Shown one piece after another: positions 50,059-59,867 of a stretch of 60,077 bases of DNA. Every line of letters begins with the position of its first letter. Within the stretch, counting starts at the first letter, position 1. A program made the translations under genes and the position numbers. Source of the stretch: Eubacteriaceae bacterium (lineage in GTDB: Bacteria; Bacillota; Clostridia; Lachnospirales; Lachnospiraceae). The notes below the pieces were generated by a model, which saw only the letters and a program-made list of their open reading frames with translations, was not told the DNA's origin and did not search any database. The stretch covers positions 1 through 60,077 of the forward strand of contig CAJTFB010000025.1 of NCBI GenBank assembly GCA_910575665.1, written 5' to 3'.

Positions 50059-50943
50059 TCATGGTTTTTCTGATATACGTTTCACTGGATAACTGGTTCC
50101 CCGATACTTTTTGTAACTGTTATGAACATCCACACACACGCCATCATGAGAGGGAACCTGCTTTTCCTCCGGCGGCAGTTCCATATAATTACCGAAGGCC
50201 ATTTTCAGATACGTGTCATAACCGACGGGAATGGGCAGCTTATAACCCTCAAAGTCTTTGTACACAGCAGATTCAAAGATCTCCCTGGGATACTCGTTGA
50301 CCATATAATTGTAACGCACACAGAGTTCTGTCACATAGCCGCAGTCGCGGATAGGATACCGAGACATATGACGCTCACAGATTCGCGCCATCCGCCACCG
50401 GTTCTTCCATCCCGGAACCAAGGCTAACATACACTTTCCGATAACATACAATAGCTTCCCCTTGCTGGTGGGCGCCTCCTGGTTGATGTAGATCTGATAA
50501 GCAAGCCCCCACAAAAGCTGGCATTTGCGCCTCCAGCGCGAAGAAGGACAACCGTCCAGAGGCAGGATCTCCAACCGGACGCCATGAGCCATATCAAGAT
50601 CCATCTGTCTCTCCTTTACAAAAGTGGTCTCCTCATCAGTGATCGCGGTAAGTTGGGATCGTAAAAATTCTGTTTCACTGGTCCGGCTCAGCCGGTACTT
50701 GCTTTCATCCATCTCCTGCTTCCACAGACGGCACATTTTCTCATAATCCTCCCTGGGCATAAATACGTCGATGTCATCATCCCAGGGAATAAACCCTCCA
50801 TGGCGTAGCGCGCCAATACAGCCGCCGCCGCACAGATAAAACAACAGATGATGTCTCTCACAAAATTCCTGAAACACCAGCGTGATCTCCAGACATTTTT
50901 TCTGAAGCTCTTTTAATTCTGCCAGCTCTTTTTCACTCAGCAT
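50059..50943 (-). CDS. LicD-family phosphotransferase, copy 1
   Basis: 294 residues. LicD signature near the N-terminus: CGGGCIGALRHGGFIPWDDDIDVFMPREDYEKM, quoted in part as GFIPWDDDIDVFMPREDY (about 52-69). LicD proteins move phosphocholine or other phospho-alcohols onto cell-surface glycans and hold a nucleotidyltransferase-type acidic site (DDDID). Close in length and sequence to the next gene. No choline kinase or CTP:phosphocholine enzyme is seen in the window, so the group transferred may instead be a polyol phosphate from CDP. Confidence 0.9.
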   Translation of the reverse strand: MLSEKELAELKELQKKCLEITLVFQEFCERHHLLFYLCGGGCIGALRHGGFIPWDDDIDVFMPREDYEKMCRLWKQEMDESKYRLSRTSETEFLRSQLTAITDEETTFVKERQMDLDMAHGVRLEILPLDGCPSSRWRRKCQLLWGLAYQIYINQEAPTSKGKLLYVIGKCMLALVPGWKNRWRMARICERHMSRYPIRDCGYVTELCVRYNYMVNEYPREIFESAVYKDFEGYKLPIPVGYDTYLKMAFGNYMELPPEEKQVPSHDGVCVDVHNSYKKYRGTSYPVKRISEKP

Positions 50944-50952
50944 AGTTTATCC

Positions 50953-51828
50953 TCACATTTCCTTTCTATCTTCCACCGGAATGCAGGGTCTGTCCAGATC
51001 CAACAGAACGCAGTCATGGTGTGCCTTCTGTTTTTCCTTTGGCGGCAGCTGCATATAGTCTCCAAAAGCTTCCCTGAGATATCCGTCGTAACCGATGGGA
51101 ATAGGCATCTTTCGTCCCTCAAAATCTACAAAAACTGCCTTTTCAAACCATTCTTTCCGGTATTTTTTCTTCATGTAATAAGGTCCCGAACAGAGCTCAG
51201 TAATATAGCGGCACTCCCGGATCGGATAACGGGTCATCTTTTTCTTTGCCAGCTTCCAGATCCGATAGCGGGTCTTCCTTCCCCGAAAGATCCCAAGGAG
51301 CAAGCGGCTTCCGGCTGCCATCAGTCCCCCATGCTTTTCCGGCACAGTCTGTGCCCGGAACAGCGAGTAGATCAGCGCCCACATGCACTGAAACTTCCTC
51401 TGCCACCGTCCCTCCGGATACCCGTCCAGGGGAATCACATCCAATGCCACTCCGTGGGGGATAGTAAGATCCTTCTGATAGGGTTTCACCTGGGTGGTCA
51501 TGCTGTCTCTGAGGGTGGCAAAATTGTTCCGGTCCATGTAATCCTCTGTGGTATCCGAAAGAAGATATCGCTTTCCTTTTTCATAGGAACGCCACTGGCT
51601 CACAAATACCTCATAGTCCTCTCTCGGCATAAAAAAATCCAGATCGTCATCCCATGGGATAAACCCTTTATGCCGCAGCGCACCGATACAACCCCCTCCA
51701 CAAAAATAACAGACCAGGCCCCGTTCCTGGCAGAACGCCACAAACACCTCTGCCATCTCCAAGCTCACCCGGTGCAGTCCCTCTAATTCCGTTTCCGTAT
51801 ATTCTCTCTGTTCCATCGGCTCCCTCAT
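50953..51828 (-). CDS. LicD-family phosphotransferase, copy 2
   Basis: 291 residues, paralogue of copy 1: CGGGCIGALRHKGFIPWDDD and LDFFMPREDYEVF at the start, LDVIPLDGYPEGRWQRK (about 138-154) and RYPIRECRYITELC (about 210). Its start overlaps the stop of the GT2 gene upstream by 4 bases (51825-51828). A second in-frame ATG 12 bases later, with GGGAG before it, is also possible. The two copies may modify different sites on the same repeat. Confidence 0.9.
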   Translation of the reverse strand: MREPMEQREYTETELEGLHRVSLEMAEVFVAFCQERGLVCYFCGGGCIGALRHKGFIPWDDDLDFFMPREDYEVFVSQWRSYEKGKRYLLSDTTEDYMDRNNFATLRDSMTTQVKPYQKDLTIPHGVALDVIPLDGYPEGRWQRKFQCMWALIYSLFRAQTVPEKHGGLMAAGSRLLLGIFRGRKTRYRIWKLAKKKMTRYPIRECRYITELCSGPYYMKKKYRKEWFEKAVFVDFEGRKMPIPIGYDGYLREAFGDYMQLPPKEKQKAHHDCVLLDLDRPCIPVEDRKEM

Positions 51829-55239: not shown

Positions 55240-55267
55240 TTGACATAAAATACAAATATGGTAAAAT
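55240..55267 (+). promoter_or_regulatory. Promoter of the TagF-DUF115/kdsB/aldolase module
   Basis: Plus strand TTGACA (55240-55245), 16-base spacer, TAAAAT (55262-55267), 50 bases upstream of the ATG at 55317. Divergent from the GtrB-like promoter 20 bases away. Confidence 0.65.
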
Positions 55268-55316: not shown

Positions 55317-57419
55317 ATGGATAAACGATTGAAATATAGATTAAGACAAGATCTGTCTCTTTTAAAAAACCGGATCAAATACAAATTGTACCGGATCTTT
55401 TATGTCACCCAGGATAAAATGGTCTTTTTTGAATCCTATCATGGAAAACGCTGCGGAGACAGCGTAAAAGCTATATATGATGAGATGGCAGAGGATGAGG
55501 CCTTTCGTGACTACACCTTTGTATGGGCATTTACAGATCCGAAAAAACACAGGGAACTGGCAGAAAATCCCCGTACAATCCTGGTAAAAAAAGGGAGCCG
55601 GAATTATTTTCGCTATGCGGCCGCCTCCCGATTCTGGGTAAATAATGTGACTGTTCCCGACTTTCTGATTCCTGGGAAACATCAGGTCTATATCGAAACC
55701 TGGCATGGCACACCGCTGAAACGGCTGGGCTGCGATATCGAGACGGACAGCGATCCGAGACAGTCCAGAGAGCGCATGCACAAACGTTACCGGAAAAAAG
55801 GAAAGAAAGTGACTCATTTCCTCTCTCCTTCCCCTTATTATAGTGAAAAGATCACCTCGGCCTTTGGTCTGGAGAAGCCGAAGAATAATCAGTTCATCGA
55901 ATGCGGCTATCCCAGAAACGATGCGCTCTTTCACTACAGTGAGGAACATATCGCGCAGATACGGAAACAGCTGGGTATCCGAGAGGAACAGAAGGTGATT
56001 CTCTATACCCCCACTTGGAGAGATACAGATTTTCAAGCACAGTCCGGCTTCCATTACAACGCTTCTGTGGATCTGGAAAAAGTGATGAAAGGGCTTCCAG
56101 AGAATTGTGTGCTCTTATTCCGCGCCCATCATCAGATTGGGATCTCCGGTATTATTGAAAACACACCCCAGATCATCGACGTCACAGACATAGACAATAT
56201 CAATGATCTTTATATCATCAGCGACCTGATGATCACAGACTACTCTTCTACCATGTTTGATTTCAGCGTGCTAAAACGCCCCATGGTATTTCATATGTAT
56301 GACAGGGAAGAATATGCCAATAACATCCGGGGCTTTTACTTTGACCTCTCGGAGCTGCCAGGTCCCATCACCGAAGATGAGACGGCGCTTGCCCAGGCGG
56401 TCACACAGCAGCTGGAACACTTTGATTTCAGCAAGGATGCCAAATATCAGGCCTTTCATGATAAATTCAATCAATGGGAGGATGGACAGGCTGCCAGGCG
56501 GGTCATCGACAACTGTATTGCCATTCCGGCCCACAAACCCGGACTGTGGGAATCCCTGATCCAGACATTCAAAAAAAATATGAATCGCATCCGCATCGTA
56601 TACATGATCGTTCGCTACAACATTACCGGATGGTTTAATATGCACGGGTTTTTCCTGAACAATAATGGAAGACGCCTCATGGACATGAAGGATTGCCACA
56701 AAGGAGAGCGGTGCTTTCTGATCGGTAACGGCCCCAGTCTGTCACCGGAGGATCTCCACCTATTAAGAGACGAGTACACTTTTGGAACAAACATGGTGTA
56801 TAAAATATTTGATAAAACTGACTGGCGCCCCAGTTTCCACTGTGTATCCGACAGCATCTATGCCACAAAGCTGCGGGACGAGCTATATAACAATGTAAAG
56901 TCACCCTTATTTACCATTGAGAAGACCTATCATAAAATGACCAAGCGGACGCTGGACACCACCTATGTTCACACCATCGCCAGCGAACGATATAAGGTGA
57001 GAGGAAACATCTTTGCCTACTGTATGGTGAAGGCAACGGTTCTGTCCCTTGCCGCCGAGTTTGCCTTTCATATGGGCTTCTCGGAAATCTATCTGCTGGG
57101 GGTGGACTGCACCAATCCTCATGCCGCTGGAGGTCATTTTACCGACAACTATACAACAAAAGAAATCGCCCAGACCGATATTTCCCGCATCAAAACCCGT
57201 ATGAACAAAGAGAATGTGACCACGGAACAGATCGGGGAACATATCATTGACCGGTCCCTGTTCGTCTACCGGCTGCTGAAAAAATACGCCGACCGGCATG
57301 GAATCAAGATCTACAATGCTACCCGGGGAGGGAATCTCGAAGTCTTCCCAAGAGTCCAATTGGAAGATGTTCTCGCCGCCGAAAAACCGGGGCCCGGTAC
57401 CCATAACAAAAAGAAATAG
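55317..57419 (+). CDS. TagF-like transferase fused to a DUF115/MptE-like domain
   Basis: 700 residues from ATG at 55317 (a TTG 18 bases earlier is possible; neither has a strong ribosome site). The first part (about 1-400) is a Glyphos_transf domain: ETWHGTPLKRLGCDIETD (about 125), CGYPRNDALF (about 195), LYTPTWRDTDF (about 225), LLFRAHHQ (about 260) and LMITDYSSTMFDFSVLKR (about 303). After a linker, about 445-690 matches the MptE-like/DUF115 family: GERCFLIGNGPSLSPEDLHLL, FGTNMVYKIF and IYLLGVDCTNPHAAGGHF. DUF115 proteins are linked to glycosyl or nonulosonate transfer. The chain may therefore carry two transferase activities. First gene of a three-gene unit. Confidence 0.87.
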   Translation: MDKRLKYRLRQDLSLLKNRIKYKLYRIFYVTQDKMVFFESYHGKRCGDSVKAIYDEMAEDEAFRDYTFVWAFTDPKKHRELAENPRTILVKKGSRNYFRYAAASRFWVNNVTVPDFLIPGKHQVYIETWHGTPLKRLGCDIETDSDPRQSRERMHKRYRKKGKKVTHFLSPSPYYSEKITSAFGLEKPKNNQFIECGYPRNDALFHYSEEHIAQIRKQLGIREEQKVILYTPTWRDTDFQAQSGFHYNASVDLEKVMKGLPENCVLLFRAHHQIGISGIIENTPQIIDVTDIDNINDLYIISDLMITDYSSTMFDFSVLKRPMVFHMYDREEYANNIRGFYFDLSELPGPITEDETALAQAVTQQLEHFDFSKDAKYQAFHDKFNQWEDGQAARRVIDNCIAIPAHKPGLWESLIQTFKKNMNRIRIVYMIVRYNITGWFNMHGFFLNNNGRRLMDMKDCHKGERCFLIGNGPSLSPEDLHLLRDEYTFGTNMVYKIFDKTDWRPSFHCVSDSIYATKLRDELYNNVKSPLFTIEKTYHKMTKRTLDTTYVHTIASERYKVRGNIFAYCMVKATVLSLAAEFAFHMGFSEIYLLGVDCTNPHAAGGHFTDNYTTKEIAQTDISRIKTRMNKENVTTEQIGEHIIDRSLFVYRLLKKYADRHGIKIYNATRGGNLEVFPRVQLEDVLAAEKPGPGTHNKKK

Positions 57420-57434
57420 AAAGAAGGAATGTTC

Positions 57435-58175
57435 ATGAAAATTATCGGTGTTATCCCTGCACGGTATAAATCCAGCCGTTTTCCCGGCAAGCCACTGGTA
57501 GATATCTGTGGCAAACCAATGATCTGGTGGGTGTACCAGCAGGCAAAAAAAGTACCTGAATTCGATGAAGTTTATGTGGCGACGGATGACGAACGTATCA
57601 AAGCAGCCTGCGACGAGCATACTATGAAAGTGATCATGACCTCAGATAAGCACGAAACCGGATCGGACCGGGTGGCTGAGGTAGCATCCAAGGTAGAGGG
57701 GGATCTGTTCATCAACATTCAGGGGGATGAGCCGGTCATCAATCCCGAGATGATCCAGGAGGTCATCTCCATCTTTTTCGAGGACGATTCTGTTTACTTT
57801 GGAAGCCTGAAAAAAGAGATTACCGATCCAGAGGAGATCAAAGCGACCAGTACGGTAAAGGTCGTTACGGATCAGCGGGGAGATGCCATGTACTTCTCCC
57901 GTTCTGTGATTCCCTCCAACATAAAGGACGGACATCTGGCAAGAGTGTTCCGCCATGTGGGAATTTACGCCTATAAGAGAGATTTTCTCAAAGAATTTTC
58001 CCAGATGACCCAGACCGAACTGGAGCTGGGAGAGGGAATTGAACCGCTTCGCGCCATGGAACGGGGTTATAAAATGCGCCTCAAAGAGACCAAGCACGCC
58101 TCCATCGGGGTGGATCTGCCTGAACACATTGAAAAAGTGGAGCGTGTGATCCAGGGAATCGATACATTAGATTAG
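57435..58175 (+). CDS. kdsB: CMP-Kdo synthetase (KdsB) homologue
   Basis: 246 residues from ATG at 57435 (AAGGA seven bases upstream; the ATG six bases earlier is too close to it). All KdsB hallmarks are seen: VIPARYKSSRFPGKPL at the start, KHETGSDRVAEVA (about 72), INIQGDEPVINPEM (about 95), MYFSRSVIPSN (about 150), RHVGIYAYKRDF (about 175) and IGVDLPEHIEKV near the end. KdsB couples CTP to Kdo or a close relative to form the CMP-sugar donor. Kdo is normally an LPS sugar, so in a monoderm the product is more likely a Kdo-like acid in a wall or capsule polymer. Between two DUF115-containing genes. Confidence 0.92.
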   Translation: MKIIGVIPARYKSSRFPGKPLVDICGKPMIWWVYQQAKKVPEFDEVYVATDDERIKAACDEHTMKVIMTSDKHETGSDRVAEVASKVEGDLFINIQGDEPVINPEMIQEVISIFFEDDSVYFGSLKKEITDPEEIKATSTVKVVTDQRGDAMYFSRSVIPSNIKDGHLARVFRHVGIYAYKRDFLKEFSQMTQTELELGEGIEPLRAMERGYKMRLKETKHASIGVDLPEHIEKVERVIQGIDTLD

Positions 58176-58256
58176 CCAGGCCCTGTGCAGCAGGATCTAT
58201 GATGACAGGGAATTAGCCTGCACTCCGGAACTCCCGGAGAGAAAGGAGTAGAAGAT

Positions 58257-59867
58257 ATGAAACGAGTACAACTATTGGACTGTACACTGCGGGATGGGGG
58301 ATATCTCGTGGATGCCCAGTTTGGAAATACAGTAATCAAGGGTATGATCAAGGGACTTGCAGAAAGCGGCATCGATGTGGTGGAATGTGGTTTTTTAAAG
58401 GATGAGCCCCACGAAAAGGGAAGTACGATATTTAACAATGCGGCGCAATTGCGCCCTTTTTTGCCGGAGGACCGCCGCCAGGCTTCTTACGTCTGCTTGG
58501 CAGACTACAGCCGCTACACCATCTCCAATCTGGAACCCTTTGACGGCACTTCTATCGATGGCGTCCGCGCCTGTTTCTTTAAGAAGGAACGCTATGACGT
58601 GATTGATTTTTGCCGGGAGATCACAGAAAAGGGCTATAAACTCTATGTACAGCCCGTGGATATCCTGGGTTACTCCGACGCAGAGCTTTTGGAACTGATC
58701 GAAAAGATCAATCCACTGGAGCCCTATGCCTTTAGTATCGTGGACACTTTCGGTTCCATGTATAAAGAAGATCTTCGCCGGGTATTTTACCTGATCGACC
58801 GGAATCTGAATGCCTCATCCCGCATCGGCTTCCACTCCCACAATAATCTTCAGATGTCCTTCTCCTTATCCCAGGAATTTGTGGATATGACCCAGGGACT
58901 AAGAAAGGTCGTCATCGACGCCACCATGGCAGGTATGGGCCGGGGCGCCGGCAACACCAATACAGAACTGGTCATGCAGTATATGAACCGCAAATACAAT
59001 GCCGGCTATGATATCGATGTCGTTCTCGATCTCATCGACAACTATGTGGATGGAATCCGCAGCACCTGCAGCTGGGGATACTCCACCCCGTATTTCCTCG
59101 CTGGCTCTTACAGCGCCCACGTCAACAACATCGCTTATCTGACGGCAAAAGCCGGGATATCCAGCCGGGATATCAATTATATCCTGAACCGCATCGGCAG
59201 TGACGCCAGAAAGCGTTATGACTATGATCTTCTGGAAAAAACCTATATGGAATATAACGGGACGATCCGGGATGATGAAAAAGATGTGGCACTTTTAAAA
59301 GAGAATCTTCAGGGTAAGGATATTCTGATGCTCCTTCCGGGTCACAGCATCGTCACTCACAAAGAAGAAATCCTGAAATATTGCCAGGAAAAGAAACCTG
59401 TGGTGGTCAGTGTCAATCTGCTCTCCCACGATTATCCTATCAACTATGTGTATTTCAGCAATAAAAAACGGTATAATTACTGGAAAAACGCAAGCCGCTT
59501 TAAAGAATACAAAAAAATCGTCACCTCCAATGTAACGAACGTCGAAGATAAAAATCAGCATATCATCGATTTTACAAGGCTGGTAAAATGCGGATGGGAT
59601 CAGCTGGACAATTCAGGCATCCTGCTTCTTCGTCTTCTGGACGAACTGGCCCCCGCTTCCATCGCCATGGCGGGCTTTGACGGCTACAGCCACGATTCCA
59701 GCAGCAACAACTACATGCACAAGGAAATGGAAAAGACACGAAATATCAAAAATGCCGATGAGGCAAACCGCGATGTCCAGAGTATGCTGGAAGACTATTT
59801 CAATACCAGGCAATCCGACTGCCCAATCCAGTTCCTGACACCATCCCGGTTTGAGATCAACCAATAG
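58257..59867 (+). CDS. DRE-TIM aldolase fused to a DUF115-like domain
   Basis: 536 residues (GGAG eight bases before the ATG). Residues 1-275 are an HMGL-like barrel: LLDCTLRDGGYLVD (R12, D13), VVECGF, IVDTFGSM (D163) and the metal ligands H193 and H195 in GFHSHNNLQM. This matches 4-hydroxy-2-oxovalerate aldolase and other DRE-TIM enzymes that form or break C-C bonds with pyruvate or acyl donors. After about 340 a Rossmann-like part (ILMLLPGHSIV, VVSVNLL, YVYFSNKKRYNYW, SIAMAGFDGYSHD) resembles DUF115. KdsA and NeuB are absent, so this enzyme may make the acid sugar that KdsB activates. Inference from context. Confidence 0.85.
   Translation: MKRVQLLDCTLRDGGYLVDAQFGNTVIKGMIKGLAESGIDVVECGFLKDEPHEKGSTIFNNAAQLRPFLPEDRRQASYVCLADYSRYTISNLEPFDGTSIDGVRACFFKKERYDVIDFCREITEKGYKLYVQPVDILGYSDAELLELIEKINPLEPYAFSIVDTFGSMYKEDLRRVFYLIDRNLNASSRIGFHSHNNLQMSFSLSQEFVDMTQGLRKVVIDATMAGMGRGAGNTNTELVMQYMNRKYNAGYDIDVVLDLIDNYVDGIRSTCSWGYSTPYFLAGSYSAHVNNIAYLTAKAGISSRDINYILNRIGSDARKRYDYDLLEKTYMEYNGTIRDDEKDVALLKENLQGKDILMLLPGHSIVTHKEEILKYCQEKKPVVVSVNLLSHDYPINYVYFSNKKRYNYWKNASRFKEYKKIVTSNVTNVEDKNQHIIDFTRLVKCGWDQLDNSGILLLRLLDELAPASIAMAGFDGYSHDSSSNNYMHKEMEKTRNIKNADEANRDVQSMLEDYFNTRQSDCPIQFLTPSRFEINQ

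Follow-up and report, generated by a model that had tools for sequence, protein, structure and literature searches.

The well-known routes to 3-deoxy-D-manno-oct-2-ulosonic acid (Kdo) and to nonulosonic acids begin with a phosphoenolpyruvate (PEP)-dependent synthase. In the NeuB-NeuA pathways, a 2-keto-3-deoxy acid is activated with cytidine monophosphate (CMP) and then moved by GT42/Maf-like transferases; NeuB depends on PEP, and its barrel family is distinct from that of the DRE-TIM aldolases. The classical Kdo pathway consists of KdsD, KdsA, KdsC and KdsB, as described in the available excerpts of PMC3149649. We analyzed a three-gene run that joins a KdsB-family enzyme to a DRE-TIM aldolase, at the end of a 60,077-nucleotide stretch of DNA from a Eubacteriaceae bacterium. 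This stretch, hereafter the window, makes up an entire contig (C25) of a 4.19-Mb genome (G000; 163 contigs, 98% complete). The open reading frames, all on the plus strand, encode a TagF-DUF115 fusion, KdsB and the aldolase with a C-terminal domain, and these names agree with Pfam and NCBIfam. The same gene order in one run had been predicted from the sequence alone (the original prediction); it was confirmed, with a promoter-like site 5′ of the first gene. It had further been proposed that the aldolase forms a Kdo-like sugar from pyruvate and an aldehyde, and that a DUF115-type domain transfers the CMP-activated sugar to a surface polymer. Comparison with other genomes partly supported this interpretation.

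Judged from gene order and profile searches, the run probably belongs to a KdsA-independent route to a CMP-activated 3-deoxy-2-ulosonic acid, in which the aldolase would substitute for KdsA. Like the classical Kdo pathway, it has a KdsB-family CMP synthetase, a KdsC-family phosphatase and the gene slot that kdsA occupies in a related genome (G243). Unlike that pathway, it has no KdsA or KdsD over the cut-off, a DRE-TIM aldolase instead, and a KdsB without the LEQL[RK] motif. The proposed route resembles the NeuB-NeuA pathways in the CMP-activated 2-keto-3-deoxy acid and in the GT42/Maf-like transfer; NeuB is probably dispensable to it in 12 of the 18 genomes that carry KdsB beside the aldolase. 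An acid-sugar system in a monoderm, as originally predicted, has precedents: the available excerpts of PMC6801904 and PMC7831098 describe teichulosonic acids as wall polymers of monoderms, and those of actinomycetes likewise contain an ulosonic acid, theirs of the 2-keto-3-deoxynonulosonic acid (Kdn) type.

The KdsB gene lies immediately 5′ of the aldolase gene in all 14 close relatives with upstream DNA (the records are named Roseburia, Lachnoclostridium, Eubacterium or Lachnospiraceae). Of the 14 loci that extend to the 5′ side, 13 encode DUF115 directly before KdsB and one (L016) does not. It is standalone in L018 and in Ruminococcus bromii YE282 (L021), and it is kept beside a shortened TagF part in L014 and G331 (L060). 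Thus, DUF115, not TagF, is the more constant partner of KdsB. On the other side, KdsC, a Kdo-8-phosphate-type phosphatase, is encoded directly 3′ of the aldolase in 14/14 related loci with downstream DNA. The window contig ends 210 bp past the aldolase, and the kdsC gene of this genome begins another contig (C16:137-640). Its product scored 164.2 bits with TIGR01670 (cut-off 106.95) and 160 bits with the stricter NF007019, under the cut-off of 208. Since KdsC follows the aldolase in all 14 relatives and the same gene begins C16, the gene set is DUF115, KdsB, aldolase and KdsC. From the gene order in relatives, we infer that C25 and C16 are neighbors.

The pair was also found in a wider sample. 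We searched 391 genomes of the class with TIGR00466; 205 gave some match, 10 scored above 100 bits and 7 were over the cut-off. The surroundings were read for the 10 genes above 100 bits, the next match being at 65 bits. An aldolase gene lay directly 3′ of kdsB in 8 of them. KdsC is encoded in four of these eight genomes (for G000, on contig C16). Another two carry a different haloacid dehalogenase (HAD) gene, nearest to phosphoglycolate-phosphatase models, and the last two have neither. G243, which belongs to the family of the window genome, shows the classical arrangement kdsB-kdsA-kdsD-kdsC; a DUF115 gene lies some 4 kb away. Thus, because the aldolase adjoins KdsB in eight genomes and kdsA does so in G243, the aldolase occupies the KdsA slot. 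In G011 (L058 4702-6400), a KdsB with the canonical motif is followed by a DapA/NanA-class aldolase gene (dapA 89 bits, under the cut-off of 206), and KdsA was not found within this 8.7-kb contig; this aldolase is possibly another pyruvate-aldolase partner of KdsB.

The original prediction held that KdsA and NeuB are absent from the window and proposed a genome survey for both. We surveyed 18 genomes with the KdsB-aldolase pair, 8 from the class sample and 10 from the family sample. KdsA (TIGR01362) was over the cut-off of 314 in none of the 18, with G243 as the positive control (405.6 bits), so that the first absence was borne out; the exclusion holds in the one direction surveyed, aldolase genomes for KdsA. 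Among the 391 class genomes, KdsA exceeded the cut-off in two (G243 and G202). The matches under the cut-off in the pair genomes reached 135.3 bits in the family sample and 124.5 in G104. The majority of the printed ones fall within reading frames 336-355 residues long, as in 3-deoxy-D-arabino-heptulosonate 7-phosphate (DAHP) synthases; the match in G469 (105.8 bits) lies in a frame of only 279 residues. A KdsA elsewhere in the window genome was considered and rejected: the one PF00793 match falls within a 340-residue, DAHP-synthase-like frame.

Two further arrangements of Kdo genes were seen. G202 (C54; L068, L109), a genome from the family of the window, encodes KdsA and KdsD side by side, whereas its best KdsB match is not a strong one (E 3.2e-9). 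In a plasmid of the actinomycete Streptomyces sp. NBC_00963 (L123), another monoderm, kdsA, a SIS-domain gene and kdsB are annotated together.

The window KdsB belongs to a distinct subgroup. We built a tree from 33 KdsB rows, in which a single branch (support 95/94; found in 94% of 200 bootstrap trees) separated the 24 aldolase-linked rows, Leisingera included, from the rest. The LEQL[RK] motif, which presumably touches Kdo and was used as a marker only, was found in 0/24 aldolase-linked rows vs 8/8 canonical rows, and it is kept in the five PDB KdsB chains printed (of 13 matched). The residues that bind cytidine triphosphate (CTP) and metal (R12, R17, K21, D100 and D229 in the window KdsB; matched by eye) are invariant in the alignment. 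The roles of these residues, and the C-terminal position of the Kdo-binding domain, are given in the available excerpts of PMC3149649, in which Kdo-contact residues were not found. KdsD (TIGR00393) was over the cut-off in 0/8 aldolase genomes tested vs 2/2 KdsA genomes. Because LEQL[RK] is altered in the sugar-binding domain and KdsD over the cut-off is missing, the product is probably an acid sugar different from Kdo.

Several observations weigh against the proposed route, and they are given here and in the following paragraphs beside the explanations they bear on. The window KdsB scored 194.2 bits with TIGR00466, over the cut-off of 155.2, and is closest to KpsU, which is compatible with true Kdo. 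The KdsD survey covers 8 of the 18 genomes, and the G104 match (113 bits) is under the cut-off of 203.7. An Aestuarium KdsB also lacks LEQL[RK]; the 8.7 kb read around it contain no annotated aldolase, and it falls in neither tree group. The aldolase might be a non-homologous KdsA substitute that condenses pyruvate with arabinose 5-phosphate to standard Kdo-8-phosphate, the arabinose 5-phosphate coming from a non-KdsD isomerase, with CMP-Kdo as the product. Besides the KdsB score, this explanation has in its favor that KdsC exceeds the TIGR01670 cut-off, that KdsA and the aldolase take the same slot in related genomes, and that CMP-Kdo is usable by a Maf transferase (PMC11339370, available excerpts). 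We consider it unlikely, given the KdsD counts, the loss of LEQL[RK] in 24/24 rows, and the pairing of other aldolases of the family with other CTP_transf_3 synthetases. A sugar other than Kdo is probably the likelier product.

For NeuB, the outcome of the survey was mixed. No NeuB is encoded in the cluster; two neuB genes, which had been named beforehand as a refuting finding, lie outside the gene run in G000. Matches above 100 bits were found in 6/18 pair genomes, that of the window among them. One neuB of G000, on contig C8, is beside an SpsF-like cytidylyltransferase (named by eye). The other (L025 3393-4430, contig C4) directly follows ATP-synthase genes and is an orphan, as the 9 kb read there encode no cytidylyltransferase. 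These genes raise the explanation that a NeuB elsewhere feeds KdsB and that the aldolase makes another decoration of the same polymer. As a general feeder of KdsB, NeuB was rejected, since 12/18 pair genomes have none above 100 bits: one gave no match and 11 matched at 28-43 bits, above the low Pfam cut-off of 22.1. Seven of these 11 overlap the places of the KdsA model and are read as DAHP synthases. The C8 gene has its own cytidylyltransferase, and the KdsB-aldolase adjacency is kept across phyla. A supply of KdsB by NeuB is therefore very improbable.

The adjacency across phyla was seen in the following records. On plasmids of Leisingera caerulea S216 and Leisingera sp. M527, alphaproteobacteria of another phylum, an aldolase-KdsB-HAD triad is annotated; the aldolase matches in Desulfobaculum and Priestia have no annotated KdsB alongside (9 plasmid records with an aldolase match, of which 4 were opened). 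The phylum sample (398 genomes) gave two more long aldolases (E 1e-120 or better), in G690 and G1027. KdsB adjoins the aldolase in G690; no KdsB was found in the flank in G1027. Two observations here count against a fixed phosphatase step. G246 and G298 have no adjoining phosphatase, and in G690 a gene resembling 2-keto-3-deoxygluconate or 2-keto-3-deoxygalactonate (KDG/KDGal) kinases stands in the place of the phosphatase directly 3′ of the aldolase (L128 337-1374). This kinase-like gene is a possible clue to the chain length; it occurs in one genome and was not relied on.

In the family of the window genome, the long aldolase was detected in 63 of 299 sampled genomes, that of the window included (67 matches of at least 468 bits; the match in G461 reaches only profile position 455, and several read through a stop). 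We read 29 loci besides the window with 1.5-kb flanks. They are the best-scoring of the 67 matches and thus non-random, leaning to the kind of the window. A CTP_transf_3 neighbor was present in 22/29, namely KdsB in 11 and others in 11. Of the latter, 10/10 were confirmed by Pfam, in addition to a weaker one in L088 (25.3 vs 22.6 bits). Since the aldolase family pairs with other CTP_transf_3 synthetases, the product probably varies. KdsC or another HAD gene was in the flank of 13/29 loci, adjoining in 12 and one gene further in L081; five of the HAD genes were scanned with profiles, and that of L082 is in two pieces. The remaining 7/29 loci have no CTP_transf_3 gene within the 1.5-kb flanks, and some of them carry a thiamine pyrophosphate (TPP) enzyme, an aminotransferase or a radical S-adenosylmethionine (SAM) gene instead. 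Thus, part of the aldolase family serves other pathways. In three of the seven (L091, L095 and L096), the long aldolase is near acetolactate-synthase-like TPP enzymes, and two of these three loci also encode an aminotransferase or a nucleotidyltransferase.

The barrel of the aldolase matches PF00682. R12, D13, H193 and H195 are invariant in 14/14 aldolases and align with R17, D18, H200 and H202 of DmpG, which we take to be the metal ligands (D and HxH) and the active-site arginine. In the DRE-TIM barrel with these residues, the protein is like DmpG (PDB 1nvm) and the putative Bacteroides aldolase 3dxi. It is unlike them in the extra C-terminal domain, the sub-equivalog score and the polysaccharide-locus context. 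Furthermore, the position of DmpG H21 is Y in the aldolases (C in one of 14); because of this replacement, the acid-base chemistry may differ from that of DmpG. Breakdown of 4-hydroxy-2-oxovalerate, the other refuter named beforehand, was not supported: the score with TIGR03217 was 72.8 vs 286 bits. Another explanation is that the aldolase is an acyl-CoA- or keto-acid-condensing enzyme, like isopropylmalate synthase, or a breakdown enzyme, and that it is near KdsB only because both are in a surface-polymer locus. PF00682 is broad, the fold neighbors include homocitrate synthases, and some family members are beside TPP enzymes or a radical SAM gene. However, the kdsB-aldolase order, mostly with a phosphatase, is kept in distant loci without KdsA, the scores fall well short of the cut-offs for leuA, homocitrate and 4-hydroxy-2-oxovalerate, and the best structural matches are aldolases. 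A condensing or breakdown enzyme is accordingly improbable.

The aldolase had been described as a fusion to DUF115. A fused C-terminal domain is indeed present. The GNGPSL motif of the transferases was found in 0/15 of these domains, and hhalign detected no sequence homology with DUF115. Since a search with the full-length model hardly probed this domain, it was modeled alone, and the fold search with this model pointed to a Maf-type fold.

Based on these results, the proposed route would run as follows. The family, the metal site and the position of the gene suggest that the DRE-TIM barrel would bind pyruvate to a divalent metal as the enolate and condense it with an aldehyde carrying a terminal phosphate, so that a 3-deoxy-2-ulosonate phosphate is formed. 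From its family and adjacency, KdsC would be expected to remove the phosphate, a role that a different HAD phosphatase would take in other loci. The aldehyde is probably phosphorylated, because a phosphatase (KdsC or other HAD) belongs to the set. The originally predicted aldolase route agrees with the KdsA slot in G243 and the absence of KdsA over the cut-off from the 18 genomes, whereas the free pentose or tetrose suggested as the aldehyde is unlikely. The KdsB relative, whose family is clear, would convert the presumed sugar to its CMP form, and the GT42/Maf-like DUF115 fused to TagF would transfer it to a polyol-phosphate-containing wall polymer. Pyruvate as the donor, the phosphate on the aldehyde, the length of the sugar chain, the polymer and the transfer of the sugar to it are inferred. 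Among the literature matches listed, in titles and excerpts, no activity of any member of the set is reported, which also counts against the route.

The last step is in agreement with the transferase profiles. The TagF part matches PF04464 and scored 292.1 bits with the TarF equivalog NF041712, under the cut-off of 550. With the DUF115 profile, matches were obtained to sialyltransferases of the CstII type (E 1.6e-5 to 3e-5) and to Maf 5mu5 (3.5e-4). The three TagF-linked DUF115 domains scanned (window, L023 and L017) matched FlagModPseD at 7.3e-8 to 8.1e-8, the window domain at 7.3e-8, all far below the cut-off. Among four standalone relatives, L059 (4.7e-7) and L066 (3.2e-4) matched the WaaZ Kdo-transferase model, far below its cut-off, and those of L018 and L021 matched no model. 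GNGPSL is kept in 11/11 DUF115 domains. DUF115 is thus related by profile to Maf, CstII (GT42) and WaaZ, unlike which it is fused to TagF in the window. This relation to CMP-sugar transferases supports the DUF115-type transferase of the original prediction. According to the available excerpts of PMC11339370, a Maf of Clostridium botulinum moves N-acetylneuraminic acid (Neu5Ac) and Kdo from CMP donors. Where the stretch read around KdsB and the aldolase contains no DUF115 (L062-L065), genes resembling polysialyltransferases are present. Ten proteins were scanned, and four exceeded the PF07388 cut-off of 23.3 (one in L063, one in L065 and two in L064; 23.7-32.1 bits); that of L062 was just under it (22.6 bits). 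No polysialyltransferase-like gene was found among the genes looked at in L061.

As for the polymer, contig C16 encodes, past KdsC, a second TagF-DUF115 fusion (PF04464 and PF01973) and a CDP-ribitol-type cytidylyltransferase (NF001183, 359.7 vs 166 bits). A ribitol-phosphate polymer would fit these genes. The dehydrogenase between the two was considered as TarJ and rejected, as its matches are weak (best 54.8 vs 469 bits). The coordinates of the features in the window are given in Table 1.

Table 1. Features of the gene run and its flanks in the window.
Feature	Position	Strand	Basis
Promoter-like site TTGACA-16-TAAAAT, 5′ of first gene	55240..55267	+	11/12 consensus matches; pattern match, candidate only
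TagF/TarF-type polyol-phosphate transferase with C-terminal DUF115 (PF01973) fusion	55317..57419	+	Pfam/NCBIfam; alternative TTG start 55299
DUF115 domain, Maf/GT42-like, predicted CMP-ulosonate transferase	56562..57416	+	Profile matches; PseD model far below cut-off
KdsB-family cytidylyltransferase, aldolase-linked subgroup, IEPLR replacing LEQLR	57429..58175	+	TIGR00466, tree
Whole aldolase open reading frame, including C-terminal domain	58257..59867	+	
DRE-TIM (HMGL-like) aldolase barrel	58257..59261	+	R12, D13, H193, H195 kept, aligned with DmpG metal site
Aldolase C-terminal domain, predicted Maf/MptE/GT42-type fold, without GNGPSL	59235..59864	+	Fold search, alignment
34-bp dispersed-repeat-like motif between aldolase and contig end	59896..59929	+	Sequence recurrence

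We tentatively extend the proposed route to a family of surface acid sugars whose synthesis would rely on pyruvate and a DRE-TIM aldolase with a fused Maf-fold domain, and not on the PEP-dependent KdsA or NeuB. Each version would have its own CMP synthetase (KdsB-like or other CTP_transf_3) and phosphatase, and the lineage of the window would place a non-Kdo ulosonic acid on a polyol-phosphate wall polymer. In the open-licence literature, the titles and abstract openings among the matches listed describe no aldolase-KdsB route. If true, the pyruvate-aldolase would be a further route to acid sugars, with an undescribed making, activation and attachment to surface polymers, and genome searches with kdsA or neuB would overlook such sugars. 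Gut bacteria would gain a surface sugar visible to host lectins and phages. The route is accessible to a direct test with three or four soluble enzymes.

The 34-bp motif, which ends in GGAGGAAAA, recurs with at least 88% identity in L025 (2826-2859), L007 (15386-15353) and L010 (9635-9602). The copies are at or 5′ of gene starts, in the window genome and in relatives. It resembles a dispersed repeat that includes a ribosome-binding site, and it may account for the contig break. Two adjacent LicD-family genes (window 50059-51828) lie in the same surface-polymer region and are kept in several relatives.

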